Assembly: GCA_950295325.1 (NCBI GenBank) | Contig: OX485806.1 | Coordinates: 15,934,001-15,998,000, forward strand | DNA from: Polytrichum commune | Lineage: Eukaryota > Streptophyta > Polytrichopsida > Polytrichales > Polytrichaceae | DNA: 64,000 nucleotides | Reading direction: 5' to 3' | In this document: one piece after another, positions 1 to 50,050 of the stretch | Layout: each line of letters starts with the position of its first letter | Numbering within the stretch: position 1 is the first letter of the stretch | Program-made: the position numbers and the translations under genes | Notes under the pieces: model-generated | The model's database searches: none | Told to the model about the DNA's origin: nothing | The model's input: the letters and a program-made list of their open reading frames with translations, nothing else

Positions 1-3000
1 CTTGATCATGTCTTTCGCAATAGAGGGCTCTAGCTTCTCATCAAGCATGAGGATGCAAATACCACGGTCATCAAGTCCACGTCGCCCAGCTCGACCACTC
101 ATCTGGATATACTCTCCACTAGTAATCCATCTAAACCTATCTCCATCAAACTTGCGTACATTGGTGAATACTACAGTTTTGGCTGGCATATTCAAGCCTA
201 TGCTGAATGTCTCTGTTGCAAATAAACACTGAACACAACCAAAGTCAAGATATTTTGATGCCTCTGTATGACACCTGAAGGCCCAGAATGGACCTCTTGG
301 AACCTTACGGGTTAATATCTTCAGATACATCAAATGACAAATGACATAAGCACCTTATGTCTAATATGAATAAAATACACATGAACAACAAAGTTGAAAA
401 TGTACCTTGATGAGGCCTTCTTGAAACAGAATCTCAATTACTTCCTTCAAAATTGGCAGCAGACCAGAATGATGCACACCAATGCCGCGTTTGAGTAATG
501 GAAGTAGATGGGAGACCTAATTTAATCACATGTTTCTGTCAAGATCATTGCTTATCAAAGTGAACTGTCAGACTTGCAGCTACAAAACTATCTTCAATTA
601 GTGTCACGTCATTATCCGCAAAATACAAGGCACTCATTGAATGGTTTATATCTACTAAGCAAGTGTGTGCCACTTGCATGACACCAACCTAGACTCATAT
701 GCCTTCAAATTAAGCATCAAAGACACTTCTAGGTGATATTTGTGTACTATATTTTTGTAGTCTCCTTACATGGATGTTTGCTTAACCAACAACTCTTGAT
801 GGTAGCAGGGATGATTTAGAAGTATACTACAATAGCTCACATATAATGTTACAATGGCAATCTACTCCACAACTCACCAGTGAGTGTATTGAAATAACGG
901 GAAAATTAGAATAGTGAAGAGGTTAATATGTCAATTTGCAGCATCCAAGACAATGCCATTATTTAACATTTATTATGAAACCACAACGTGGACAGATATG
1001 CTCATCTCAAATATTTCAAACAAGATGGACCTGTGCTGCCAAGAAGCATATCCTCACAGCATCAACTCAAAGTCTATACCTGAGGGAGCTTCTTATCATC
1101 ATCAGAAAGCGAGTCCATAGCATTCCAGAACACACCATCCACTAGCTTCTTCTCATTTTCATCATTTAAATCAAGCTTTGCCATCTGCAAAAGAAAACAA
1201 TACAATTAGAATCTGAGCCATGTCATAATTCTACACATGAGGAAGAGCCAGCTTCCATGAGCAATCCAATTGGGCATTCACAAAACATCAAAGTTTGCAG
1301 CCACTGTGTCCTTTTACAATGTGATTTGACGCCACTAAAATACAGGCAAGGGCCTTTCACACCCACATAACCATAATCAGGACCACACAAACAGAGACTT
1401 AAGTGTGGCTTGTGAAAAGTATGTACAAAGGGACACTAACTAGTTGTCATACAGAACCCCAACAAAGATCTGCTAAATCTAGCTAAAGCAGGAAGGATAT
1501 GTAAATTTGACCCCACCCATATAAAAAAAAAAAAAAAATTAATAATAATAATAATAATAATTACATGTAGTGCTCCAACATTTTGACAACACCCTGCTCA
1601 AGTTACAGTGGCCAGATAAAAACCTGAAGTGCATTTTCTTCACAGTTGCGTTTACTGAAACTGAATACAATCACAGGGTCAAACTGTCGCTGCATAATCA
1701 TCTTGATAATCTTAAAAATGTCACTAGGCTCGCCAGGTGCTCCACCCCTTCCACCCTTCTGCCACTTTCCAGTTTCCTTCTTTTTGGAAGAATCACCTGC
1801 TTCTTTTGTAGAAAGCGAATTGACAGCTTTTTGGAAGCTACTATCTCGGAACATACCCTTTTCATCCACAACCATATACAATCCATCGCCCCCAGCTGGG
1901 TATACATAGTGCTGTAGAGGAGTGGGACGGTAGTCTGTGTACACAATATGACAAGGTTGTTCATGAACCTACAGTCACAACCCCCACATTTGTTGATTGT
2001 GAATGTTATATTAACACAAACTCAAGAGCAGAACAATGACGCAGGTCAGAAATTTAGTAGACATAGGTAGAGGCAATTGACGATGAAAGCTCCAGAAAGA
2101 AAATCAACATGCCTATCAGCAAGAATGTTGTCAAATCTTCAGCAATACTGCTAGGACTGTTGAATTAATGTATTTCTCTCAGGCTGATGTAGTTACTTGA
2201 CATTTCTGAGAAAAGCCCTTCAATTCTTGAGTCACCAGCTATTACCGACCAAGAACACTATAATACAACTACACTAAATACGAACGCATACACTAAAAAT
2301 CACTAACCCTATGAAAGTAAGTAACATCAAATGTAAAGTCAAACACTAAATATCAACTATGGTAATATGTGGAAGTTACATGCATGAAGTTAGTGTAGTG
2401 CAAAGCCAGAACACATATCCTAAGAGTCCTTAAGCACCCTTTAGCTCCTGGAAAATATGAACGTTGAGGAAAACAACTAGAGAAAAGGTTCATACCTTTG
2501 CAACCCAGTCAGCAAACTCCTTTGCATTTGGTACAGTGGCAGAGAGGAACACAAAGCGAGCATTCTTGGGTGCCATCACAATGCTCTCCTCCCACACAAC
2601 TCCCCTTTCCCGGTCCCGCATGTAATGTACTTCGTCAAATATAATCCAGGCCACTTCCCTCATCACCTCTGACCCTCTATACTGCATACTACGTAGAATC
2701 TCTGTTGTCATCACCTAATACATTCAAGCTCAGTCAAAGTCAACAAAATTGAACATTTCTCTTACAGTGTTGAAGAGGAAAAAGGATTGATACAACAGAC
2801 CCTTTCAGAAGAAACAAGTATCGACCAGGAATAACCTACAGAAACTACACCACAGGGTTGAAGACTATTTTTACAAAAGTTTCCTGCCTGGAAGAATTGC
2901 CTGCTTTCAGGTCCAACAAAGACCTGAATTGCCCAACTTTAAGTCATGTTTCCATGCAAAATTTAAACATCATAGTATCCATTTAGTGTTCTCAATCAAT

Positions 3001-5662
3001 CTAATTAACAATAGTACAAGAAGAGAATTGGATGCATACCAAGCAAGAAGCATTTGGATTGATTGTGACATCCCCAGTCATGAGACCCACATCAGGAAAC
3101 TCCTCCAACATATCCCGATATTTTTGGTTGCTAAGAGCCTTAATAGGCGAAGTATACACAACTCGCTGTTTATCCCGCAGTGACATAGCAATTGCATATT
3201 CTGCAACTACTGTTTTTCCAGCTGATGTATGGGCAGACACCTGTACACACAGGGCACAACCTGTACATGACTATGGAGAGACTAAGGTGTTTTCATTGAA
3301 AGCTCAAAAACAGAAATGCAACATATCAATTGAAATACATTTGCAACTTTGGATCTCAAGTAAATTCCAAGGTGCTGAGGATGGCATAATAGTGTGCTAG
3401 AAAATTGCAGTGCCCTTGAAATTACATGTGCCTCAACAAACAAAATGACCTCAATAAACTCTTCAACAACCCACTTGTGTGGAAGTTCCTAGTGGCACTC
3501 AACATTGAGGAACCTAGAGTTCACACTAATAGGATATCCATATGTACTTAGACATCAGTAGGAACACAGTACCATAGAACATGGAAACTACATAAATTGG
3601 CAGACCACATTTGATTTTTATAAAAGATTGCCAGGCATCCATAACTTAGGTCTAGGCATACAGGCTGAGCCCTTGGGGTATGACTTCTTGTCTCCTCCAT
3701 AAAACTCAACATTGCCAATCATGAAATGATTGATTTCTTATAACAACTAAGGGCTTTCTTGTGAGATTATTCTGAGGTGAAAACCATGACATTAATGTGC
3801 ATTTTCATGCTGCAGATTAACTAAGAACTAGGATTACGCTCATCTAACTGGACTCTAGATTGAAAGTTTAAACTGTGCCAATGGACCGATAACCAGGCAA
3901 AGCAATTAACTCTGCATGAATGCACACCTTGAAGTGCAAAATAATAAAACTAGCGGCCAAGCCTTCCAAGAGCAGAACTTAAACTGCAAATTCAGTGAAG
4001 AACATGAAATATGCGTACAGGGTTAGAGTTGGATGGCTCAAGGTCATTAAATAAATCTGCAGGCAAGGCTCAGCACCTTGCCTATAAACTCAGAAACCCG
4101 ATAAACAGAAACACCAGGCATTGTAATTAAACTGAGAAGAGTATCAAAATGCCTGAAGGGTTAGAGTTGATGGCTCAAATTCATTAAATACATTTACAGG
4201 CAAGGCTCGGTGTCCTTGCTGAGCTGATTCCTGTGATCTCAATAATCTGCAACACACTTGAATTTAAAGCTTACAGCTCAAGAACAACTGATTGAGCATG
4301 TATGGACTCCAAAGTAGAGCATTCAAATATGTAATTTAGGATGCTAATCAGCTTTTTGTCCATAACAGATGAATTCAATTCTGCTCACATTTGACTAGAG
4401 GACATTAAGAAAACTTGGCTTCTTAAGTTACCAACACAGATTCCCCAGATTCCACGCACTGGATAGCTTCCCTTTGGCATGGACAAGGGAAAAGGATACT
4501 TCTTTGCGGGAGCATGAATATGCATAAAGGTTAAAAGTTGATGCCTTAAGGTCATTAAATAAGATTGCGGACAAGGTTAAGGGTCCTTACTGTGCTAATT
4601 CCAGTAAACTTGATAACCCGCAAGAAACTAAACTTTCCAGCTCAAGAATAATAAATTGAGGATGAATGGACTCCAAAGCGGAGCATCCAAAGGTGACAAT
4701 TTGGATGCTAATACGCTCTTTTCGTCCATTACAATTCAAATGTTGCTCACATTCAAATAGAACACATAAAGAAAATTCGACTTACATCTTACCGAGACAG
4801 AATATGCCTAAAAATTAAGTTGATGGCTTAAGGTCATTAAAAAAATTTACAGGCAAGGATGAGGGTCCTTGCTGGGCTGATTCCTAAAAACTCGATAACC
4901 CACAAGACACTAAAATTTAAGCTTTCCAGCTCAGGAATAGCTAAATTTAAGCATGAATGGCCTCCAAATTAGAATCCAAAGGTGAAATTTTTGGATGCTA
5001 ATGGGCTCCTTTCGTCGACTACAATTGGAATGCTGCTGCTCACAATCCAATAGACCACAAAAAGAAAAGTTGACCTCCTGGTTACCAACACCGAATATGC
5101 GTAAGGGGTAAAAGTTCATAACTCAAGGTCATTGAATAAATTTGCAGGCAAGGCTTAGCGTCCTTGCTGAGCTGATTCCTGTAAACTCGATAACCCGCAA
5201 CACACTAAAATTCAAAGCTTACAGCTCAAGAATAACTACAAGTGATCATGCATGCACTGCAAAGTAGAGCATCCAAAGGAATAACTGAAATGTTGAATTC
5301 TAATCGAATTTTTCATTGTTTGCGATTCCAATAGAGCACAAAAAGGAAAAATTAGGGTTATAGCTTACCAACACAGATTCGCCAGCTTCGAGGCACTGGA
5401 TGGCTTCCCTTTGGAATGGATCCAGGATAAATGGATACTCCTTTGCAGGCGCTGTATCTTTCCTCTCTGAGACCGGGCGGACGTATCCCTCCGGTATAGA
5501 GACATCGTGAAGACATGCAATGCCACCTTTCCCAGCCTCCCCCACGTCCACAGGCTCCGCAAGCTCCACGGGAGTATGTAGAATTCCCGGTTGCCGAGCT
5601 TGCTTTGCAGACGCTCCTTGTTGCTCCGGCTCGTCCTCCGCCTTCCTCTTGGCCGTTGCCAT
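1..5662 (-). CDS. MTR4: MTR4-type DExH-box RNA helicase, 5' half (gene runs off the left edge)
   Basis: Seven exons, all joined in phase 0 at GT-AG introns: 5662-5369, 3240-3040, 2714-2496, 1968-1624, 1184-1080, 516-406 and 228-1 or beyond. They give 501 codons of a protein usually near 1000 residues. Visible helicase motifs, in order, are AHTSAGKT (motif I), [11 protein letters not shown] (Ia), DEVHYM (II), LSATVPN (III), [12 protein letters not shown] (IV), [15 protein letters not shown] (V) and [10 protein letters not shown] (VI). The N terminus is short, basic and low in complexity, followed by the [11 protein letters not shown] segment typical of plant MTR4. By family knowledge this is the 3'-5' helicase cofactor of the nuclear exosome, acting in pre-rRNA processing and RNA surveillance. 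The close paralogue HEN2 is less likely from the fit of the core. The arch, winged-helix and C-terminal domains lie outside the window. The ATG at 5662 is the first in frame and begins a natural N terminus. Confidence 0.96.
4009..5368 (-). repeat. Tandem array in MTR4 intron 1 that includes a relic of exon 1
   Basis: Units recur with starts near 4009, 4149, 4516, 4802 and 5094; full units are about 286-292 bp and the first is partial. Each carries a recognisable block reading, on the plus strand, like 'ggctcaaggtcattaaataa', then 'aggcaaggct', 'tgctgagctgattcc' and 'ctcgataacccgcaa'. At about 4428-4505 one unit also keeps a degraded copy of the last 85 or so bases of exon 1, including the splice-donor side (compare 5367-5455). 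The array therefore arose by tandem duplication across the exon 1/intron 1 boundary. The exon relic no longer keeps a clean frame. Confidence 0.75.
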
Positions 5663-5880
5663 GGCTCAGAATTTGAGCACAAAAAAAATGCTGTTCCGAA
5701 AACCTACATCGCCAACTAAGTTACTCTCCGCAATTGGCAATCAGGAACACAAACAAAGCAGGAAACTCCCTCGTCGACAGCGATAGTGCGTGTCTGTGTC
5801 ATAGGGTTTAAGGGAGAATTAGGGTTTGGGGGGTTTTGGGAGCAGGGGATTTGACTTAGGGCTTGGACCTTATAGAGCAA
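5663..5880 (-). promoter_or_regulatory. MTR4 upstream region with telo-box motifs
   Basis: Upstream of the MTR4 start, the plus strand shows 'atagggtttaaggg' near 5801 and an exact TTAGGGTTT near 5820 (AAACCCTAA on the gene strand). A related 'attagggtta' lies just inside intron 1 at 5351. Telo boxes are established promoter elements of plant translation and ribosome-biogenesis genes, which fits a helicase needed for rRNA processing. No convincing TATA box was seen, and the transcription start is not known. Confidence 0.5.
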
Positions 5881-6419: not shown

Positions 6420-6470
6420 AACTAGCAGGAAGACGTTAAATACCCCCCCACGAACTTATAGGGGGCACCT
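6420..6470 (+). repeat. Left target-site duplication and left terminal inverted repeat of the MULE
   Basis: The direct repeat AACTAGCA occupies 6420-6427. The terminal repeat runs 6428-6470, beginning GGAAGACGTTAAATACCCCC and ending in TATAGGGGGCACCT. It matches the reverse complement of 19407-19450 except for a few differences near the outer end, including one missing base. Similarity fades after the CACCT. Confidence 0.93.
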
Positions 6471-6689
6471 CTGACAGGTACAGGACTGCCCGCGAAGTGA
6501 TGTCAGCAGTGTCCAGCCGTCCATCCACTCCACTCGACGTTCATCCACTCCACGTCCGCGTTGAAGGCGTCCTCCAGACCTGCGTAGCTAGGATTTAGTA
6601 CACGACATTGACATATACTAAGATCCTTATACATTTATACATACAATGTTATATACACAATGTTACAAGTATAGGGTACTGTATATCCA

Positions 6690-7040
6690 GTTCTGCATCT
6701 GCTGTTCTGTATACCCAGATATGTACACCCAGACCCAGTTCTGCATATGTACATGCTCTGCAGATCTGCGATGGAGTGTTCCTGTATATCTACCTATACA
6801 GAACATTCCCTTCAGATCTGCGATGGAGTCGTTCTGCATATGTACCTATACAGAACATACTCTGCAGATCTGCAGAATGGACTCGTTCTCAATCTCTACC
6901 TATAGATAACATGATCTGCAGATCTGTACATGGACTCGTTCTCAATATCTACCTATACAGAACATGATCTGCAGATCTGTAAATGGACTCGTTCTCAATA
7001 TCTACCTATACAGAACATGCTCTACAGGTATGCGAATGGA
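6690..7040 (+). repeat. Left subterminal minisatellite of the MULE
   Basis: About five units of 51-56 bp, each with the blocks 'gcagatctg', 'atggactcgttct', 'tctacctata' and 'cagaacatg'. Short open frames here arise from the repeat. Subterminal repeats often hold transposase binding sites in MULEs and hATs; that role is inference here. Confidence 0.8.
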
Positions 7041-7161
7041 GTGATTTTTGGATCTAGGGTTTAAGGGTCTTGGAACGCAGAGCACACATTTCTTTGCATA
7101 GTGTGTGATGGTTTAGGGTTTCGTCATTTGTGCTCGCGTTTTCAGATTTTGAGTTCTTTGC

Positions 7162-7645
7162 TATCCGTTTCCAGTTCTCCTGTTCGAAGTTGTTGGGTAC
7201 TGCTCAAATTTTCTTCATCGCCTTCACCTTGCAAGGACACATCCCCTCCTTTGTTTCCAGTTCTGTTGTTCGAAGTAGTTGGGTACTGCTCAAATTTTCT
7301 TCATCGCCTTCTACTTGCATCCCCTCCCTCGTTTCCAGTTCTGCTGTTCGAAGTAGTTGGGTACTGATCAAATCTTCTTCATCGCCTTCACCTTGCATCC
7401 CCTCCCTTGTTTCCAGTTCTGTTGTTCGAAGTAGTTGGGTACTGCTCAAATCTTCTTCATCGCCTTCACCTTGCATCCCCTCCCTCGTTTCCAGTTCTGT
7501 TGTTCGAAGTAGTTGGGTACTGCTCAAATCTTCTTCATCGCCTTCACCTTGCATCCCCTCCCTCGTTTCCAGTTCTGTTGTTCGAAGTAGTTGGGTACTG
7601 CTGAAATTTTCTTCATCGCCTTCAACTTGCAAGGACACACCCCCT
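7162..7645 (+). repeat. 78-bp tandem repeat upstream of the transposase frame
   Basis: Six units share the core 'gttcgaagtagttgggtact' and 'cttcatcgccttcaccttgc'. Central units are exactly 78 bp, while the first and last carry an extra 8-base insert after 'ttgca'. Because 78 is a multiple of three, one plus-strand frame (Ser-rich, 26-residue repeat) and one minus-strand frame (acidic, with EGDEEDLSSTQLL) both stay open. Neither joins the transposase frame directly: that frame has a TGA at 7681-7683, just after the array. This may be a 5' leader or an N-terminal exon. Confidence 0.8.
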
Positions 7646-7797
7646 CCCTCATCACATTCGTATTCATGGAAATGGCCTCCTGAAATTCTGTTCAAGAGAA
7701 GGCGACCACCCATTTCCCCCGCAATTTGTCAAATCCTCAATCCAGTGTAGAGTGCGATGATGACATCCCACAAATCGCTCCTGCAACATTTCGTGCA

Positions 7798-10700
7798 ATG
7801 CAGGCTGATCTTATAATTTCGTTGAGAGAGAGAGTTCAAAATCCTCCTCCAGGTGCATTTGCTATGGACGACTTGGTGTGGACCAACCACGTTACACAAG
7901 GTCAAGGGATACAGAAAACCTCTAAGCTAGCTGTAATATTGTGGGAGAGACTTGATGATTTCATTAAAGGCGAGCAACAACATCCTCAATTTCCCTGCAA
8001 TTTTACCAAGGAAATCGTCCGTATTAACTTGCCAAACTCCTTGCGAACACCTCGTGCACACAGTCCTGCTATTGTATTGAGGTTTGACCTACTGCCTGCT
8101 CTGAATTTGAAACCACACACTATTCATGTTCTGCTTGTCATAATGTGCTCACCAGCCAGATATCAAACTTATGCATTTTATTCTACACTCCACAATTTGC
8201 AGTACACTGTCCTTACTGTTCATGAGGGTGTATGGATTCCATGTCCTGCAAATATGTACATATAAAATTTTACATATTCAATACATGTGTTCTTCCATTG
8301 CCATTGCAGATACAGGTGCAATTTTGGTCCTGAAGATAGGAGTGATATTGTTGCGCATGATATGCAAGCTCTACTGAAATCTACACAAAAAAAAGCAGAA
8401 GATGTTGCAGAAGAAAAAGCGAGGTAAGAAGGTAATACCGGAATACGAGTCTTTCGCAGTGAGCAAATCAACCCATCCAAAGGTTGCGCGCATTGGCAAG
8501 ACATGTGCGGGCAACTCAAGAAAGCGAGGGTGCCAATGTTGTTTTCTTGCGAAGAAGCCCTATCTGGACCACTCGTTGTGTTTGCTAATTTATGAAAATG
8601 CAGAACACTTGAATAAAGCTGGAGAACACTGCCACGGCACCATGCTCGGTGGATTTAGATATGCGCTCGGTGCTAGTCTTTCAACTGAAATGAAACAAAA
8701 AATTGTTGAAATGCATGCCTATGGGTTATCCCCTACCCAAATCATGCAACAACACACCAAAGAGGTTCGTGAGCTTGTCGTGTGTAATGGAGTGGTGACG
8801 CACGACACATTCTTGTTGCCGTGCGACGTCAGAAACATATGTCGAAAGAGGGCTGAAGATCTGTGGGAGAAACATCCGTCCGACCCGATTAGCGTCCGTA
8901 TGTGGGCAGCAGAGAATCCAGACAGCGTGTTCTACTACCAAGAGCACTCGCTACTGGACCTTAATTCTCAAACACAAGACGACTCACCTTTCACCATAGG
9001 CATACAAACTGAATGGCAACTTGAAATGATGGCAAACTTCGGTCACAACAGCGCTCTTTCCATTGACGCCACGTTTGGTACCAGCCAGACTAGGGTAAGC
9101 TAATGTCCATGTCCTTCATCTTCGTCATCATGTTCTGTGATGATTTTCTCATACTGCCAGTCAATTTGTTTCAACCATGTTCTGCCCTATGCTAACAATG
9201 ATGTTCATTGTTTCTACAGTACCCACTCTACACTGTTATGGTGTTCGATGATTGGAGAAATGGCATACCAGTGGCTTTCTTTGTCATTTCGCGGACACGT
9301 GAACAAGATCTCCGCCCAGTTCTTCAAGCGCTGCATGACAGGGTTCAAGGGTTAAAAAATGATTGGTTACCATCCTCTATTATCGTTGACAATGCTCAGG
9401 CTGAAATAAACACACTTGGGTAAGCAGTTATTGTCTGTTCTGCAACTTTTACTTTGTAGTCTCACCCCAATATGTAATGCAGTGTCCTGCATTGCATATT
9501 GGTGTTAATTATTAATTCCTCACTGTTACAGGTATTTTCCTCAGTGTTCATCCTCTGAGCTCATAATCTACTGTTCTGTCTCTTGCACAGCATGGTGTGG
9601 CCGCAAGCCAAAATTTTCATGTGCTTGTGGCATGTCAGAAAGTCATGGGCAGAGAACGCCATCAAGAAAATTTCAAGCGCTGCAGAACGCAACACTGTTC
9701 TTCAAATGCTCGGCGACATAATGTACGGGAAAGGTTGCAAGGTTGACGATGATCCTATCGACTGGGCCCTCGACCAACTTGACAACATATCTAACACTCG
9801 TCCATTGGCGAGTGCGTTCATGACATACATGAACGATGTTTGGCGAGTCAAGACACCAATGTGGTGCGTCGGAGCGCGACGGATACCACATGCAGGATAG
9901 AACACTAACGCGGCTATTGAATCCTATCACAACAATTTGAAGAGTGTTCTAAACTCTGCCAAAGAGAAATTTGTGGGTAGGCGCATGGACTGGCTTATTT
10001 ATCATCTAACGGGTGACGTTTTGACTCATTACTGGTACAGTGTCCAATGCAAAGCATACGGATATATACGCAACAAGAAACAAGAAGGTATTGTTGCATC
10101 TGCAATTATGGGAGCCAACGACATACCTGATAGTAAAGTCCTCATTTGTATGGACGAGGATGTTGCATATGTGGGGTCTGTAAACAACCGCCCGAAGGTG
10201 TGGACCATCAAATGTCCGGACTCTGAATGGGCACAATGCAACTGCCCCGTCGCCAAAGAGGGCATGATTTGCAAGCACACCATTAAAGTCTTCAAGATGC
10301 TCCACCCTGGAATTGAAGATGGTGCCATAGTGCGTGAAGCTGGTACACGACATGGAACTCAGCGCGCCACTCCAATTGCGCGTTGTTACGCAGGACTGTC
10401 ACAACAGACTACTCAAATCCATGTTCCGGAAGACATGGGCACACCAATCAAAGTTGAACCTGTGGTGCAGGACAATGTTCTGCAAATTGATGTTGTCGAA
10501 GATCACATCACTCTAACTCCTGTGGACCCTGTGACTGTGGACGACGAACAGAACCCCTCGCAGTTCTCCTCTCAGTTTACCCAGATGGACTCCTTCCATT
10601 CGACTCCCCTTTCCCAAGAGAGTTCTTCACAAGCACCCACTGCCGCAACCGCGCACGACATTTACGCCACCCTTGCACTCAAGGCTGAGCAACATCCTGT

Positions 10701-10899
10701 TCTACAAACTCACTTGATCGCTAGCCTTAGGCACATTCGGGGCAAGCAAAACCAGCTTATTGCACAAGGGGTTACATGGATGCCATTAACTCCTACGACA
10801 ACCTCGTTTCCAGAGAGGGCAGGCGACAACTCTTTAAAACGCCGGAGGAGTTTCCTGGAGTTCCCGTTGCCGAAGAGAAAGCTTTCCAGCTCCAAATGA
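7798..10899 (+). pseudogene. MULE transposase with SWIM zinc finger, broken by one frameshift and one TAG
   Basis: Proposed exons: 7798-8253 (first in-frame ATG at 7798), 8310-9094, 9220-9419 and 9591-10899; all junctions are GT-AG and phase-consistent. The MULE catalytic residues are visible: Asp in SIDATFGT (9065-9067), Asp in IIVDNAQAE (9388-9390) and Glu in NAAIESYH (9919-9921). A Cys/His motif, CLWHVRKSW, lies between them. A SWIM finger (C-x-C-x8-C-x-H, at QCNCPVAKEGMICKH) follows near 10240-10280. Two faults are seen. Within 8310-9094 the frame shifts by one base near 8424, where the first frame meets TAA just after EEKAR while the neighbouring frame carries on with KKVIPEYESF. In the last exon a TAG at 9898-9900 falls seven codons before the catalytic Glu. 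The product would be the DDE transposase acting on the element ends. The N-terminal exon is uncertain. Confidence 0.88.
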
Positions 10900-11889
10900 T
10901 AGGGTTTAAGTGTGAACAATAATCTGCATTATCTGCATATTTGTAATGCAGTACACAGTTAGTTCTTACTTGTAATAGTTTTTAATTCTGTGTGCAAAGT
11001 TATGTGTTAACAATAAAATGGTCCTTCCTAAGTACCATATCTGGGTGTAGTAGGGTGATTCATGTTCTGGTTACGACATACCTCAGCTCATTTTCCTTGT
11101 TGTACTGCAACTCGCCTGTCCTGCTCATTGTGTATTGTTCTGCACCATTGGTTGATCACGCGCCAGTTGTCCTGCCCATTTCCTACTCTACACTTCTTCT
11201 ACTGCACATCGACTGTTTCTGGGTTTGGTGCGTTTTCATCATGACTGCTCCCATCCCTTTCAAGTGGTCCCATCTAACCACATCCCCCCCCCAACATCCC
11301 ATATCACACATGGTCTTCTGAAATGCCATTGTTTTATATCAAAATAGTTGCTATTGAAAGCAGTACAAATGGTCTTTGACCTTCGAATGTTCTTTGTATC
11401 ATGTTCTACGTTTTCTGTGTTGTATATCCTGTTATGTGTATCCTGTTCTACATGACTATACGGTATTTGATGTTGTACAATGTAATGGAAACTGTACATC
11501 CATTTTACAACATGTTACACATGTAAAAAATACAACCTAACTCTTGTCGACTACTTTCGGAGGTCCGACCTTGAGCCTTACTCTGCGATGTTGTTTCGCT
11601 GGAGGTCTTCGTCGTAGTGCTGTCTGGTGTGCAATTCTCACGTTCCATTCCGTGGAGTGGTGCCGTCCATTCTCTATCACATCGATCAACGCATTCCGAA
11701 CTACCCTCCTTGTACGCAATGCATCTGTCCTGCTATAGTTCAACGCGAATCCTTGCAACAACACAAACATCCTTAGAACATTTGTTGCAGAACAACAGTA
11801 CATTAATTGTGGTAGTATTATACTTAAACTTTTTATGATCTATTACTCATCTGCGTATTCTCTATGCATGTTTAGGTGTTCAAAGAGGT
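10900..11889. other. Convergent 3' region between the two MULE genes
   Basis: This lies between the transposase stop (10897-10899) and the protease-gene stop (11890-11892). 'aataaaatgg' near 11012 resembles a plant polyadenylation signal for the transposase. A minus-strand frame at 11760-11537 codes for an Arg-rich basic tail rich in RRRP-like stretches and could be an extra 3' exon of the protease gene. However, the only good acceptor (near 11756) is out of phase with a donor after LTLCE, so I did not join it. Confidence 0.4.
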
Positions 11890-14800
11890 CTAAGACTCAA
11901 TTACCTCACACAATGTAAGGGGTCTATCTCTCACGCTCTTTGTATACTCCATGATATTCTTCAACATGTAGAACCCGCAAGCCCAGCCAGAATTTTGTTG
12001 TGGCACAATTCCTTGTACCCACTGCTGGGACGAGCTAACATCATTCCACATATCAGCATCGATATCATTGCCACTCCACGCAGCCCACAACTTTCCGAGT
12101 CTTGTTTCAATTCTGGGGTCGGAATGGAGACTTGACCCTACCAAGGAATCGAGATGGAAGAACCCGTGTCCCCCTACTATGTAAACGGTCCAATGTTTCC
12201 CGCATGTATAAGGAACTATTAAAGTGTTTATGTTCTGCGTTGGAAGGGCTCCATGCACGTCATGTATGAAGGCTACATATACCTCTAAGGTGTCTTTTTC
12301 TTGGTCCTAAAGATGCGCTAGGAGCAGGTTTAGAAGATAAGGACTGCAAACGTGACACTTTAAACTCTCAAGTTGGGGATTCAGCCACGCCCTAATCCAT
12401 TCCATCATGTAGTTACTCAACTCCCCATGATTTTGAACCAAAGGCTTCATATCCCCTTTCCACTATAGACTCAAATTCTCACCACAATACAGAAACTCAA
12501 AACTTGCAACTTTCTTCCCACCTGCTTCAGCAATGATGGTGTTCACAAGTTCCTCAAGTCTGCAGAACACAACCTCATGTATTAGTCTCGTAGCCAGCAA
12601 CATCAAAGGACGGTATGAATATTATGTTTTGCATCATTAACACTACATAAAAGTTACCTTCCATCCGATTTTTGTGTTGTACTGCCCAGTACGTCGTCCA
12701 AAGTTTTGTCCTCCTTAGGCTGGACAGGACGGGAGCTGACCTTCACTGGCTCAACATGTTCCTCCACCTCTGATACTACCGGGCACGCAGTGCGAGTTGA
12801 AGTGGATGCATCCTTTGTCGCCGTCGAAACTTCACCCATGTTCTGGACCGAAGTGGATGCATCATTTGTCGCCATCGGAACTTCACACATGTTCTGGACC
12901 TCTTTGTAGGCGTCATTGAAAAGTGCGCCTATTTCGTCCGCTGCAGCACCAGCGTCCTGTGAGCATCGGGATGAGTCCAATGGTTTGTTGTGGGTGCAAC
13001 CAGTAGGGGTAGTGTCGTCGAGGTTCAACCTCCGTGCTGGAGAAACCATTGTCCTGCCATCCGGAGGCCCTATTGCAAGCGTGTGAGACGGCGTCCTGTA
13101 AAACCACGGTCTTGTGTTGACCATTTAGCAAAAGGCATAGGTGGAAGGCGCTTAATTGAACTCATAGGTTGATAAGGGTGTGGTATGAAACACGAACCTT
13201 AATGGCGTGTTCTGCATCTCAGAACTAAGTTGTGTTAGGGTTATGTCCTACGTGCTGATGCGGTCGACGCCATCGAAATCCATGTGCATAGGTATTGAGT
13301 CCAAACTCTCCAAACTCATGGCCTTATGTACTTCACCCCCGAACCCCAGTGTTGATCGAGATGATTTTTCCATAGGCATCGTCACCTCTTCGAACAACAA
13401 CGCCCTCGTGCAATGTAGGTCAGGGGCAATGTCATCTGTTGTTTCCTCCACTCCTAGTCCACAATTGAACAACCGCAATTGGGTGGACCTTACATATTGC
13501 AAGCTTTGTACTATATCCTTCACCCGCATCTGCACGCAGGTGCTCTTCTTGTGCAGGTCACCCAATGTCAATGTTCCTATGTCAACGTCCTCGCGGAAGA
13601 CCATTGATGAACACAAGACCTGCGCCACATATCCTTCACTTACTTTGGCCATCGTATGTTGTTATACCAATACTGTTCTGCACTATATAATACTATATTG
13701 TTTTACAATCAATATTCAAAATGTACTGTTAGACATATCATGTTCCTATTAACTCCCAATCGTCATAGTGAAGAACATGCTAAACCCCGAGGGTGATTGT
13801 CAGATGAACAGGACTCAGTACATACCTCGCTACACTTCGCTTGGCGTTGCTCTCCGACGTCGACATTGAACCACATGTCAGCAAGCTCACTTTCACGGTG
13901 CATGTGGACCATGTCTGCAATGGCTCGTTGCGCGATCCTACCGATGAAGGACTCCATTTTCTTAACCACAGCCATGCGCCCTGATGGTTCGTGTCCAAGC
14001 AGAGCTGCAACGTTTGTGAACAGGACATCAATGTGTTCTGCGGCACTCTCGATGCTGGGGAAAGTACACCAACCTGTTGTAGGGATGTTCTGGGCAATTG
14101 TCGTCAAGGCGACTGAGTGGACTATGTCTCGAGCAAGCTCCAATATGTATTCCTCGTGGAGACCTATAGTTGGGTGTGAGATTGGACGACTGAAGCCTGT
14201 ATGATTTCTGACCAAGTACAAAAATGCTCTCAAAACATGCGGGCACTCACGCTCAAGCGACAGAGGCTCGGTCTTCGTGTTCGACAGCAGAACATCTGAC
14301 ATCTCCAGCCACTCCTGTTCTGTGTGGTCCCATGGGCCAGCCTTGAAATTTTTTAGAGGCCATTTTCTGAATATCTGGTACAACGGTGACCATTTCCACT
14401 TGGACTCCTCCTCCTTCTCTTTCACGGCGCTGTCAAATTTTCGTAACGCGTCTTCGACGTGATTTCTTCTAAAATTCTCAAAGTTGACCTTGGCGGCAGC
14501 AACCTTCTCATCGTACTCCCTTTGTTCGACGCGATAATGAAGATAGTCTTTCAGGCACCTGAGCTCTTCATACACGTTCACATCAGAATTGCTCTTAAAA
14601 ACCCTGACCTGCGCCTTTATTTTATCCAAAAATTCGCTATGTTCTCCAAGGTTCTTCTGCAATGTATACACCGGCAGAACATAAAAAAACGACTCATTAT
14701 AAGAACATAATATTGTACAGCCAATCTGATCTGGTAGAACATGAGATGATAGAGCACATTCAAAACTGAAGAACATGGAGTGAAACACAATACCATATTT

Positions 14801-17003
14801 TTGCCATGCAGGTACCATTGCCCGAATGCAGCCCCAACGCGATAGCCAATAGAGCCATCTTCCAATTGTTTCTGGAGGTATTGCATGCAGCCATCCGGGT
14901 CATCTAAGAGACTTTTTGGCACCCAATAATCGTCAGTCTCGTTGATAAGCACATAGAGACCATCGACTGGCACTAGTTCTGGAGGCCGTGTAATCTCTTT
15001 AGGCGCATGGAAAAGAACTGTGGCCTCCTTGTACGCGTGTTGTTTGCACTCCTCCCGCGACATGGGGATAGGTTGGACAGGTTCAGTCGAGGGCTGGGCA
15101 ACAACAAGGGGAATAGCATCTTCCTGCGGAGGCTCGGGTTGCATAACAATGTCCGTCACAGGTACTGTTTGCGGAACAATGTCTATGTCTATGGCAGGAT
15201 TCAATAGTACACCATCGTGCGAAGTCGTAGCTCGAATAAGTTCAGTCTGCTGAACTTGTGGGTGGATATGTTCCACACGCGACGGCGAAGGCTGTGCACG
15301 ATGTCCATGCTCGTGCGTCACAACACGGAAGTACCCATGGCCATTGTTCTGCGAATTTGGAGTCGCCTCCTTTGATGTGGAGTCGGACTCGCTTGGCGAC
15401 GTGCCTAAATTCAGGTCCTCTTCGCTAGAGGATATACAAATCCTGCGAGATGTCTTCTAATTTTTCTTCGGTCGTCCCTTACTGGCAGAGGGTGACTTGG
15501 GTACTCTGGGCGGTCCCTTCACTGCAAGGTTTTGCGCCTTGCGGGGTGGTGATGAGGGAGCGGCGTCCACACCAACGCTGCGAGTTCTACAGCCAATGAT
15601 AGGAACGGGCGTCCTCGTTGTTAGCTTGCGTTTTCTGGATGGAACACCATGTCCTGCATCGGCAGCCACCAATGATGTACTGCCCACTGGATTGGACTCT
15701 AATTCCAGAGGCGGAGGAAACTGCGATGGGGATTGGGAGTGCGACCCATGTGGCGAGGAAACCTTGTTGAATTTTTGTGCAATCCTATGCTTTTCTTCAT
15801 GATTGCTTGGCTCCCAGGTTGGATATATCTTAAGTGGCTTCTCTCCCGTGTAGCTCTTACATAGGTTAAACATCCTATGGTAAGAGACAGTGTTCTTATC
15901 CTTGTATGACTCATTGCAATAAATACAATTGAACCTGTACCTGTTATTGGCCATTTGAACTTTGTCCCTCGCCTGCCAATATGCCTCTACCACAAGCTCC
16001 TCATACTCATCCTCTACGTACATACATGCACAGGTCTTCCTATTTTGTTTCATGGTACAACGGAAAACCCTAGATGTTCCATCTGGACCAGCAAACACCT
16101 GCAAAACAATACCTGTTCAATATGCAGAACTGATGGGAGGGAAGAAAGTTCTAATAGAACTACAGGACATGTTAAATTCCTAAAACAGATGAGAGGGAAG
16201 AAAGTTTTGATAGAAAAAACAGGACATGCTAATTTCCTAAAACTGATGGAAGGGAAGAAAGTTCTCATAGAAAAAACAGGACATGTTAATTTCCTAAAAC
16301 TGATGGGAGGGAAGAAAGTTGTCATAGAAAAAACAGGACATGTTCATTTCCTAAAACTGATGGGAGGGAAGAAAGTTCTGATAGAATTACAGGACATGTT
16401 AAATTCCTAAAACTGATGAGAGAGAAGAAAATTTTGATAGAAAAAACAAGACATGCTAATTTCCTAAAACTGATGGAAGGGAAGAAAGTTCTGATAGAAC
16501 TACATGACATGTTAAATTCCTAAAACTGATGAGAGGGAAGAAAATTTTGATAGAAAAAACAGGACATGTTATTTTCCTAAAACTGATGGGAGGGAAAAAA
16601 ATTCTCATACAAAAAACAGGACATGTTAATTTCCTAAAACTGATGAGAGGGAAGAAAATGCAGTGAGCAAAACAGGACCTGTTTAATACCAAAAACTGAT
16701 GCTTACCCCTTGAAAGTTCTAAGAAAATTTAACATATTGTTATGTAGCAAATATGTAACCAACAATACAGGAAAATGGTAAGGAAAAACAACACAACAAG
16801 TTCTGTGAATGAATGCTTACCCCTTCTTGCCAACCTTGTTTACCATGTATGCTCAAGTGGACGAATTTGTGCCTCCCCAAGGACCTTATCAGGGCTTCAT
16901 CTTCGAGGACATGCCAACCCACAGCAAGCGCCTATGGAAGAAGTTTCGCCCCGTTCTTGTTCCTAGTCACTTTGGATGCTCCTGTTCCTTCAGTTGTCGC
17001 CAT
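11890..17003 (-). pseudogene. MULE-borne Ulp1-like (C48) cysteine protease with N-terminal C2HC finger, five in-frame TAG codons
   Basis: Six exons fit in phase: 17003-16821, 16098-14794, 14656-13826, 13619-13198, 13095-12658 and 12559-11890, giving 1283 codons including the terminal TAG. The N-terminal region has a C2HC finger (C-x2-C-x12-H-x5-C, starting CIYCNESYKD). A Ser/Pro-rich, basic, probably disordered section follows, then a large helical region (exon 3). The C-terminal Ulp1 domain shows His in CGKHWTVYI (about residue 1182), Asp in FFHLDSL (about 1197), and Gln and Cys in VPQQNSGWACG (about 1248 and 1254), the C48 catalytic set. Internal stops, all TAG, are at 16932-16934, 15457-15459, 13248-13250, 12463-12465 and 12307-12309. 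No TAA, TGA or frameshift was found in the model. Ulp1 proteases cut SUMO or related conjugates; the role of these MULE proteins in transposition is not established. Confidence 0.85.
16110..16670 (-). repeat. 57-bp tandem repeat filling intron 1 of the protease gene
   Basis: About ten units with blocks 'actgatgggagggaagaaag', 'ttctgatagaa', 'aaaacaggacatgttaa' and 'tttcctaaa'. Central spacing is 57 bp. The array sits between the donor at 16820 and the acceptor at 16099, so the open frames through it are by-products of a period divisible by three. Confidence 0.85.
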
Positions 17004-17960
17004 TAATGCGTTCGGGTATGATGATTTCAATTATGCACAAAAACACTCAAAACTACACTTGAAAATGAGCAAACCCTAAACCTCACACGCTTTCATAATT
17101 TGCTGGCATTAAATGTGCGATAAGGGAATGAAGAGTCTGCAAATAAGCAAAACTGCAAACCCTAATAAAATTGTGCAGAATGTCGCTAATGAACTTGCTA
17201 ATGTCGCTAATGAACGGCCGTGGACATAAACTGCCGCAATAATAACTGCTGCTACAACAACAACCAGAAGCAGTTATTGGACACCAATCGATTAGCACTC
17301 AAAACCCTTGGAATGCCGCAAAAACCTTTCGAGTATAACCCGCAACCGCTTCGAATGTCACTAAAAACGCTTAGATTCTAACTAAGTCGACTCATCGAAA
17401 TCATGTCCACACTCGCCGAACACACACCAGCTCATAAATTTCGCACGTTCCTACTCAAAAGAAAATCAAGCAGTTCACAAATGAAACCCTCGCAGCCCTT
17501 CACAAGCTCTTTAGAAAATGGTTAAACCTGCTGGTCTTCAACCCAATGACGTCCAAATGATACCTAATAACCCTAAACAATCACTTTCAGTGAAATCACT
17601 ACGTCATGATTGATGCAGCTATCATTAAAGAGCATGGGCGTACGACATCCCTTGAGCAGGACAGCAGTCGCGTCGAACTGCTCTGTACAGGACTGCAGTC
17701 GCGAGGAACTGGTATCTACAGGAAGGCAGTCACGTGAAACTGCTGTGTAGAACAGAACAGTAGTGCAGCAGTGCATCAATGGCGTGGAGGTGATATGCAC
17801 AGCACAGTAGTAGCGTGGAACGTTAAATAGGGAAAATGTTCAATTTGAAGAGGTTGTCAATGTCTCCCTTGTTCTATGTTGGAGATGAGATCGTGTTCGA
17901 CAATGAAGCATTGTCCATCTCCCACTGTAATAAAATGCATATCGTCTACGTTGGAGATGA
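17004..17960. other. Upstream region of the MULE protease gene
   Basis: There is no credible gene here. The stretch 17640-17830 repeats short blocks such as 'caggactgcagtcgcg' and 'ggaactg', which grade into the subterminal minisatellite. The promoter of the minus-strand protease gene should lie just right of 17003, but I cannot point to a defined TATA box. Confidence 0.4.
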
Positions 17961-18029
17961 CTTCATGATCCACAACCAATAAGAATGCATGTTCCACAAA
18001 AAACCATAGCCCATGTTCCTAAACCAAAA

Positions 18030-19135
18030 AGAGTGCATGTTCCCCAAAAACCAGTGTCCATGCTCCACAATGAACCAGTGTCCATGTTCTTAAACCCTAA
18101 ACCAGTGTCCATGTTCCTAAACCCTAAACCAGTGTCCATATTCCTAAACCCTAAACCAGTGTCCATGTTTCACAATCAAGCAGTGTCCATGTTCCACAAT
18201 CAAACAGTATCCATGTTCCACAATCAACCAGTGTCCATGTTCCACAATCAAACAGTGTCCATGTTCCACAATCAACCAGTGTCCATGTTCCACAATCAAC
18301 CAGTGTCCATGTTCCACAATAAACCAGTGTCCATGTTCCTCAATAAACCAGTGTCCATGTTCCATAACCAATAACATTCATGTTCTACAATCCTATGTTG
18401 TGCTAAATAATGTCTCTATGTTGTGCTAATTAATGTCCCTATGTTGTGCTATTTTATGTCTATATGTTGTGCTATTTTATGTCCATATGTTGTGCTATTT
18501 TATGTCCATATGTTGTGCTATTTTATGTCCCTATGTTGTGTTATGTTATGTCCCTCAATAAATTAGTGTCTATGTTTCACAATAAACCAGTGTCCATGTT
18601 CCTCAATAAACCAGTGTTCATGTTCCACAATCAAGCAGTGTCCATGTTCCTCAATAAACCAGTGTCCATGTTCCACAATCAACCAGTGTCCATATTCCAC
18701 AATCAAGCAGTGTCCATGTTCCTCAATAAACCAGTGTCCATGTTCCACAATCAAACAGTGTCCATGTTCCACAATCAACCAGTGTCCATGTTCCACAATC
18801 AACCAGTGTCCATGTTCCACAATCAACCAGTGTCCATGTTCCTCAATAAACCAGTGTCCATGTTCCATAACCAAGAACATCCATGTTCCACAATCCTATG
18901 TTGTGCTAAATAATGTCCCTATGTTATGCTAAATAATGTCCCTATGTTGTGCTAAATAATGTCCCTATGTTGTGCTAAATAATGTCTCTATGTTGTGCTA
19001 ATTAATGTCCCTATGTTGTGTTATTTTATGTCCCTATGTTGTGCTATTTTATGTCCCTATGTTGTGCTATTTTATGTCCATATGTTGTGCTATTTAATGT
19101 CCCCATGTTGTGCTAATTAATGTTCCTATGTTCTC
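18030..19135 (+). repeat. Right subterminal minisatellite with alternating A-B-A-B arrays
   Basis: The A unit is 24 bp ('ccagtgtccatgttccacaa' plus 'tcaa'), at about 18036-18372 and 18560-18890. The B unit is about 23 bp ('tatgttgtgctaaataatgt' plus 'ccc'), at about 18395-18555 and 18895-19135. The A-to-B junction is the same in both blocks ('cacaatcctatgttgtgc'), so a segment of about 515 bp was itself duplicated. The 24-bp period gives an octapeptide repeat in one frame (PVSMFHNQ), which I regard as non-coding. Confidence 0.9.
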
Positions 19136-19149
19136 CCTAGCTAAGTTCA

Positions 19150-19320
19150 ATTCAATGTGTACTGTATACGATGTCATGTATACGATGTCCTGTGTGGGAT
19201 GCACTGTATACGCAGTCCTGTATACGGGGTCATGTATCCGCTGTATTGTATACGTTGTACTGTATATGTCGTACTGTATCCGACGTCCTGTATACGCTGT
19301 ACTGTATACGCCGTAGAACT
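19150..19320 (+). repeat. Short-period 'tgtatacg' repeat next to the right end
   Basis: About ten degenerate units of roughly 15 bp based on 'ctgtatacgctgta'. It lies between the A-B minisatellite and the right terminal repeat. The palindromic core GTATAC recurs in most units. Confidence 0.75.
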
Positions 19321-19406
19321 CCTAAACGCGTTGTCATCCATACGCGTCCGCGAATGACCGGCACGACCGGTCACCCCGTCGCCGGGCTGCCCTGCACATT
19401 TTCAAC

Positions 19407-19458
19407 AGGTGCCCCCTATAAGTTCGTGGGGGGGTACTTAACGTCCTCCCAACTAGCA
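19407..19458 (-). repeat. Right terminal inverted repeat and right target-site duplication of the MULE
   Basis: The terminal repeat occupies 19407-19450 and, read inward from the right, begins GGGAGGACGTTAAGTACCCC. The direct repeat AACTAGCA follows at 19451-19458, identical to 6420-6427. Confidence 0.93.
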
Positions 19459-48829: not shown

Positions 48830-50050
48830 GAAATACGAAGCCACCTTTCTTGCACCACATTTACCACAAGCCCTCCAACACACAAATCATATTGTACACC
48901 CACACCGCTTGAGCCTCTCGCGGTAAGGTGGGCATGCTCAAATCCAATACATAATCTGAAACCCGAAACTATGTATCATGACAATGTATTTGAAGTTCCC
49001 TGTTTGTGTGATTGTGGTATATAATGGTAGTTTTAGGTTTTATTGGTGGGTAAGGATTTACACATCTATCATGAGCCCTCCAACACAAAATCATATTGTA
49101 CACCCACACCGCTTGAGCCTCTCGCAGTAAGGTGGGCATGCTCAAATCCAATACATAATCCGAAACCCGACACTATGTATCATGTTAATGTATTTGAAGC
49201 TCCCTATTTGTGTGATTGTGGTATATAATGGTAGTTTTAGGTTTTATTGGTGGGTAAGGATTTACACATTTATCATGAGTCCTCCAACACATAAATCATA
49301 TTGTACACCCACACCGCTTGAGCCTCTCGCGGTAAGGTGGGCATGCTCAAATCCAATACATAATCCGAAACCGACACTATGTATCATGACAATGTATTTG
49401 AAGCTCCATGTTTGTGTGATTGTGGTATATAATGGTAGTTTTAGGTTTTATTGGTGGGTAAGGATTTACACATTTACCACAAGCCCTCCAACACACAAAT
49501 CATATTGTACACCCACACCGCTTGAGCCTCTCGCGGTAAGGTGGGCATGCTCAAATCCAATACATAATCTGAAACCGACACTATGTATCATGACAATGTA
49601 TTTGAAGCTCCATGTTTGTGTGATTGTGGTATATAATGGTAGTTTTAGGTTTTATTGGTGGGTAAGGATTTACACATTTATCATGAGTCCTCCAACACAT
49701 AAATCGTATTGTACACCCACACCGCTCGAGCCTCTCGCGGTAAGGTGGGCATGCTCAAATCCAATACATAATCCGAAACCGACACTATGTATCATGACAA
49801 TGTATTTGAAGCTCCATGTTTGTGTGATTGTGGTACATAATGGTAGTTTTAGGTTTTACCGGTGGGTCAAGGATTTACACATTTACCACGAGCCCTCCAA
49901 CACACAAATCATATTGTACACCCACGCACCCACACCACTTGAGCCTCTCGCGGGGAGATTGTGGTAAGGTGGGCATGCCCAAATCCAACACATAACTTGA
50001 AACCGACACTATGTGTCATGACAGTGTATTTGAAGCTCTCTAATTGTGTG
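48830..50050. repeat. 204-bp tandem array
   Basis: The landmark 'cgcttgagcctctcgc' (with variants) recurs at 48906, 49110, 49315, 49519 and 49723, then near 49937. Each unit also has 'ggtgggcatgctcaaatcca', 'cactatgtatcatgacaatg' and 'atggtagttttaggtttta'. 204 is divisible by three, which explains a 261-codon open frame at 49182-49967 that is not a real gene. Confidence 0.9.

Follow-up and report, generated by a model that had tools for sequence, protein, structure and literature searches.

Mutator-like elements (MULEs) that bear an Ulp1 gene, among them Kaonashi (KI-MULE), have been described from Arabidopsis, grapevine, melon and rice (PMC2528002, PMC13317346), and a 2026 review places the capture of Ulp1 in MULEs without terminal inverted repeats (TIRs), near the split between monocots and eudicots (PMC13317346). 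The same review states that an Ulp1 domain is carried by some VANC genes (PMC13317346). VANC proteins bind YAGTATTAY and other motifs specific to a family, which are repeated in tandem within noncoding VANDAL DNA, and there they bring about a loss of DNA methylation (PMC5735166). The element compared with these systems here spans 13,022 bp (positions 6428 to 19449, no strand assigned) of a 64,000-nucleotide stretch of contig OX485806.1, referred to as the window, from a genome that is moss-like. It belongs to a TIR MULE family present in multiple copies, of which it is a decaying one, and carries genes for a transposase and an Ulp1-like protease, whose frames are interrupted by six stops, all of them TAG.

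Kaonashi and KI-MULEs likewise pair a MULE transposase gene with an oppositely oriented gene for an Ulp1-like protease. KI-MULEs are described as non-TIR, whereas the window family has TIRs, so that the lack of TIRs that marks Kaonashi and VANDAL elements does not extend to it. Its moss-like host also stands in contrast to the origin of Ulp1 capture near the monocot-eudicot split that the review proposes (PMC13317346). The host is called moss-like on the strength of PsaB from contig C8, presumably the plastid, which scores highest against 8htu, 6l35 and 7ksq (1701-1705 bits), entries from Physcomitrium patens, ahead of 1667 and 1630 bits for the next distinct sequences. No report of Ulp1 MULEs in moss or of VANC anti-silencing in bryophytes was found in the literature searched, which, with subscription journals thinly covered, is weak evidence of absence.

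Six TAG codons and their counterparts in other copies

The protease gene (11890 to 17003, minus strand) was modelled as six exons (17003-16821, 16098-14794, 14656-13826, 13619-13198, 13095-12658 and 12559-11890) separated by GT-AG introns, with 1283 codons including a terminal TAG; the transposase gene (8402 to 10899, plus strand) has three exons (8402-9094, 9220-9419 and 9591-10899) and 734 codons including a terminal TGA. All splice phases of the protease model match and exactly five internal TAGs interrupt it; the transposase model has a single one, at 9898. The six-exon protease model of the original prediction, phase-matched and with TAGs only at these five places, was thereby confirmed, and direct reading of the six codons, one on the plus and five on the minus strand, confirmed that none is TAA or TGA.

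A DNA search of the genome (408 Mb in 64 contigs) gave at least 28 rows, the window's own included, its counts being lower bounds. For the remaining 27 rows, 19 stretches were fetched and projected onto the window sequence, pieces being dropped if they were shorter than 150 bases or more than 30% already covered. Judging from their spacing, L007 and L018, L014 and L019, and L015 and L016 are probably halves of split copies, which would leave about 16 other insertions. A further copy, L036, came from a later protein search and stands outside the codon counts of the 19 pieces; four more diverged loci, L032 to L035, were also compared.

Alignment to other genomic copies, as proposed earlier for these stops, gave CAG nearly throughout at four of the six sites. 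The transposase TAG (9898-9900, plus strand) corresponds to CAG in 13 of 14 other copies and to CAA in one; of the protease TAGs, all on the minus strand, that at 13248-13250 corresponds to CAG in 13 of 14 (CAT in the other), that at 12463-12465 to CAG in 15 of 15, and that at 12307-12309 to CAG in 14 of 15. The remaining copy at this last site, the diverged L009, has TAG, the only one of the window's six to recur elsewhere. TGG stands opposite the TAG at 15457-15459 in 11 of 12 copies, one being gapped, and the change there lies in CHH context (H being A, C or T) on the plus strand, while GAG stands opposite that at 16932-16934 in seven of seven, a transversion. Five of the sites are spanned by L036, with the residues W, Q, H, Q and Q. 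All four diverged loci, L032 to L035, agree on E at 16932 and on Q at both 13248 and 9898; at 15457 they have three gaps and L, at 12463 Q, Q, Q and S, and at 12307 D, D, D and R. Since the counterpart codons of the other copies are CAG, TGG or GAG, the stops arose in the window copy. The protease gene had been said to lack frameshifts, and this stood up to comparison with the covering copies: no exon position was found at which most of them have an insertion or deletion (indel) relative to the window, and hence no frameshift private to the window copy was seen.

Six internal stops that are all TAG, in frames otherwise open, are what would be seen if UAG were decoded, read through or edited and both genes still yielded full-length proteins, which the original prediction had offered as a rarer reading. 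The sites stand for Q, W and E, however, and not for one residue; the TAGs are missing from other copies with one exception at one site; and a U-to-C edit would be unable to restore the TGG and GAG sites. In addition, the protease gene itself ends in a conserved TAG (11890-11892, minus strand; 15 of 15 covering copies), and decayed MULE domains elsewhere in the genome contain all three stops. Recoding, read-through and editing were rejected on the counterpart codons together with the conserved terminal TAG, and we regard them as extremely unlikely.

Mutation spectrum and the origin of the stops

The stops are very probably the product of ordinary decay of a transposon copy, mainly by C-to-T changes at CG and at CAG/CTG, with deamination of methylcytosine the likely source. 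They are copy-specific, the pattern of changes is near-neutral and the C-to-T excess depends on context. Of 9351 columns, 9203 allowed a majority base to be called, the array in protease intron 1 being masked (16090-16729). Of the 73 substitutions private to the window copy, 58 are C-to-T, and a count of these by context, likewise proposed earlier, gave an excess at CHG (23 of 693 sites, 3.3%) and CG (16 of 673, 2.4%) over CHH (19 of 2576, 0.7%), with odds ratios of 4.6 (p = 1.6e-6) and 3.3 (p = 0.001), respectively. At CHG the window copy has a higher C-to-T rate than the other copies (p = 0.015), which is not so at CHH (p = 0.73).

Over all 20 rows, C-to-T changes were found at 87 of 4255 CAG, 97 of 4174 CTG and 15 of 1652 CCG sites; CWG (W being A or T; 184 of 8429) is thus well above CCG (p = 3e-4), and CCG does not differ significantly from CHH (p = 0.67). 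Under plant chromomethylase CCG is methylated less than CAG and CTG (PMC5221884), and in Physcomitrella CHG methylation needs PpCMT, CCG methylation dropping in a met mutant as well (PMC6453930). The faster decay of CWG than of CCG across copies therefore fits methylation by a plant chromomethylase. Methylation-driven C-to-T decay of plant transposons has this same profile, an excess at CG and CWG with lower rates at CCG and CHH, and nothing essential differs here apart from the higher CHG rate of the window copy.

Five of the six stops derive from a C followed by A, as would be expected of a process like repeat-induced point mutation (RIP) acting on C in CpA. Yet CAA (35 of 5835), CAC (44 of 4360) and CAT (55 of 6035), again over all 20 rows, are no higher than other CHH triplets, CTG is as high as CAG, and the host is moss-like by its plastid PsaB. 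RIP was rejected because the trinucleotide table shows no concentration of C-to-T at CpA; it is scarcely credible as an explanation. Sequencing or assembly errors in the window copy are an extremely improbable source, since the private differences share the C-to-T context pattern of the other copies and include no exon indel, neither of which is expected of errors.

The original prediction gave deamination in CAG, a CHG site, as one reading of the stops. This holds for four of them, where nearly all other copies have CAG. The change from TGG to TAG, an opposite-strand C-to-T in CAA (CHH), agrees only in a wider sense, and that from GAG to TAG, a G-to-T, does not. It had also been held that the lack of frameshifts spoke against ordinary decay. 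The private changes nevertheless split much as neutral ones would: 13 synonymous, 21 missense and 4 stop in the protease gene (neutral fractions 0.30, 0.64 and 0.05) and 5, 10 and 1 in the transposase gene (0.28, 0.66 and 0.06), the TAG at 12307, common to L009, being excluded from the private stops. Other copies, moreover, carry all three stops in the two frames (26 TAG, 16 TGA and 6 TAA), and in 11 of the 19 other pieces one gene or both are frameshifted.

The chance of an all-TAG outcome, put at about 1 in 243 for equally likely stops, was too strong a figure. When every one-step change to a stop is enumerated and weighted by the mutation spectrum, the TAG share of stops is 0.495 with the spectrum of the other copies, 0.612 with the window's own and 0.441 with flat rates, and six TAGs out of six then have a probability of 0.015, 0.052 and 0.007, respectively; the observed 26 TAGs among 48 stops in the other copies give 0.025. 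TAG is the stop most often produced in these two genes because CAG is common among Gln codons and, as a CHG site, a preferred target, and because TGG offers a second route to TAG. Six of six is mild luck atop this TAG bias. If methylation had no effect and the run of TAGs were pure chance in plain neutral decay, the near-neutral split of private changes would be accounted for, and between the window and the other copies the types of stop show no significant difference (6 TAG and 0 other versus 26 and 22; Fisher p = 0.07); the dependence of C-to-T on context in the window and the excess of CWG over CCG over all copies argue otherwise, and we consider this account very unlikely.

Decay driven by methylation would have begun with insertion, followed by loss of selection on the element's genes. 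Substitutions would then have piled up, with C-to-T at CG and at CAG/CTG dominating. The likely source is deamination of 5-methylcytosine that plant enzymes of the MET1 and chromomethylase types would have placed on the transposon in its silenced state. The locus is probably methylated and silenced now, or was formerly.

Several points weigh against this account. A change seen in one row only was taken as derived, which is an assumption; the CHG rate of the window copy is not significantly above its CG rate (p = 0.33); and CHG deamination alone is insufficient, one of the six stops being a transversion and another lying in CHH context. The window also shows a mild excess of stops, six against 2.9-3.2 expected per copy (Poisson P = 0.08-0.10), and even with codon content and spectrum taken into account the all-TAG outcome retains a chance of only 0.015-0.05. 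The stop types in a decayed transposon reflect codon content and methylation context, so that a run of TAGs is weak evidence of recoding. The copies, for their part, offer a readout of chromomethylase-like methylation (CWG over CCG) from sequence only.

Structure, coding content and surroundings of the element

The TIR arms of the MULE (6428-6470 and 19407-19449) are 43 bp long and 95% complementary, and the element is flanked by a 9-bp duplication, CAACTAGCA. The left TIR begins alike in all six other copies examined; for two of these, L003 and L006, the right end was not located, and the four with both ends located each have a 9-bp target-site duplication of their own, as the window does. 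Noncoding tandem arrays with differing units lie at 6751-7040, 7166-7631, 16128-16701, 17657-17749, 17964-19132 and 19158-19314. The array within protease intron 1 (16128 to 16701, no strand assigned) has a 57-bp unit and contains AAAGTTCTGATAG and CAGGACATGTT.

By its domain and active-site residues the protein of the window family is a predicted Ulp1 or C48-type cysteine protease. Peptidase_C48 (PF02902) scores 22.5 bits against a Pfam cut-off of 20.7, and a profile of six relatives matches the Ulp1-like SUMO protease 6dg4 (E 9e-4) and, more weakly, SENP8. His, Asp, Gln and Cys are the active-site residues of C48 proteases; the H, D and Q columns are invariant in the six aligned proteases, the window among them, and the Cys is present in five, again including the window, with Tyr in L033. 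At each splice site of the protease model GT and AG are retained in most covering copies (the lowest being the acceptor of intron 1, 8 of 11), and the modelled exon boundaries coincide with or adjoin the ends of tblastn segments to diverged families. A C-x2-C-x12-H-x5-C pattern (15859-15927, minus strand), its four residues invariant in nine of nine aligned proteins, is a putative zinc finger. No Pfam zinc finger scores above cut-off in the protease protein, and a fold model of the region, with a mean predicted local distance difference test score (pLDDT) of 51.8, was too poor for a structure search.

In the transposase the MULE domain (PF10551) was found within one exon at 26.0 bits (E 1.3e-5), just below the Pfam cut-off of 27.6, which the copy L005 (C3:12549267) exceeds with 27.9 bits. 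A run of A at 8387-8394, immediately 5' of the modelled start, differs in length among copies. Further upstream there is an open frame of 193 codons (7684-8265, plus strand), which as a possible further coding exon has neither a Pfam match nor a clear coding signal.

The MULE sits about 760 bp upstream of the first exon of an MTR4/DOB1-like gene (1603-5665, minus strand); RNA helicases of that type match the exon at 5300-5665 (minus strand) with E 1.7e-9, and 1603-1968 (minus strand) looks like a later exon. Elsewhere in the window, a 278-codon open frame at 49131-49967 (plus strand) is built from an internal repeat unit of roughly 65-70 residues. In the wider genome, L046 (G000:C5:48361900-48366600) is a piece of a Gypsy-like retrotransposon whose frame ahead of the reverse transcriptase holds a C-5 cytosine methylase domain (PF00145, E 6e-12). 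Among 123 PF00145 matches listed by the genome search, many lie in open frames of more than 1000 residues and one lies some 34 kb to the left of the window; L046 alone was read. Methylase-bearing retrotransposons have been reported from dinoflagellates and the charophyte Klebsormidium (PMC5890265); a literature search on moss Gypsy elements with a DNA methyltransferase domain found no report of an element like L046, which, with subscription journals thinly covered, is weak evidence of absence.

Family-specific short words

Of more interest for follow-up than the stops is a side result concerning short words. TGTYCTG occurs 46 times in the 13-kb element, where a dinucleotide model predicts 5.5, and nine times in the remaining 50.7 kb of the window. 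Related families have words of their own: the window family has TGTYCTGC and its nearest sister TGTTCTGCA, a third group has approximately TGTYMTTCA, and the words of a fourth and a fifth are GTAGTGC and TGTTACA, respectively. In loci hand-picked from homology tables (the window, L001, L010, L032-L036 and L039-L045) the words occur 14-37 times per 6-13 kb. The three sister-family loci (L032-L034) have GTTCTGC 30-33 times and GTCCTGC 3-4 times, and the six loci of the third group (L035, L039, L040, L042-L044) have GTYCTTC 16-29 times and GTTCTGC 0-6 times; the fourth and fifth words are represented by one locus each, L041 with 19 copies of GTAGTGC and L045 with 14 of TGTTACA. Six background slices of the window and the retrotransposon piece L046 have 0-3 of each of seven patterns. 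The separation is incomplete, GTYCTTC occurring 8-11 times in window- and sister-family loci and GTYCTGC 10 times in L041.

The flanks of TGTTCTG are distinct at 24 of 28 sites in the window element and 29 of 30 in L032, so that tandem duplication does not explain most sites of the main words; CATGTTC, with 18 distinct flanks among 42 in the window, is in many cases explained by it. The words lie on both strands and in coding sequence too. The scoring matrix was rather loose, simulated sequence giving 21; of the 149 sites scored, 117 are noncoding, many in tandem arrays, and 32 are coding. There is no more than a suggestion that the word is retained in coding sequence from one family to another: of the window words that could be aligned, 6 of 13 are still the word in L032 (where 22% of all aligned 7-mers are unchanged), 6 of 12 in L034 (24%) and 0 of 2 in L035 (9%). 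Local protection of motif-rich noncoding DNA from decay was not seen when C-to-T rates in coding and noncoding sequence were compared (CG 0.019 and 0.018, p = 0.92; CHG 0.019 and 0.022, p = 0.39; CHH 0.008 and 0.009, p = 0.18).

The likeness to VANDAL and VANC (PMC5735166) lies in a dense, family-specific short motif and in tandem arrays in an accessory-gene intron, here intron 1 of the protease gene, and 5' of the transposase gene. The window family differs in having TIRs and in carrying the word in coding sequence as well (32 of 149). By this analogy we suggest, tentatively and with rather less than even confidence, that related MULE lineages, most of them seen here with an Ulp1-protease gene, have words of their own that would be targets of an element-encoded DNA-binding protein shielding its own family from silencing, a counterpart of VANC and VANDAL in TIR elements far from Arabidopsis. 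The reader of the words may be the protease protein with its putative zinc finger, or the transposase. No protease homologue was found by tblastn in the 6.2 kb fetched at L045, where a word is present, and this argues against regarding the protease protein as the sole candidate. A loss of word-based protection may then have led to the decay of the stop-bearing copies, with its bias to CG and CWG. If the words are indeed targets of an element protein, it would become testable whether sequence-specific transposon anti-silencing in land plants is old or arose repeatedly.

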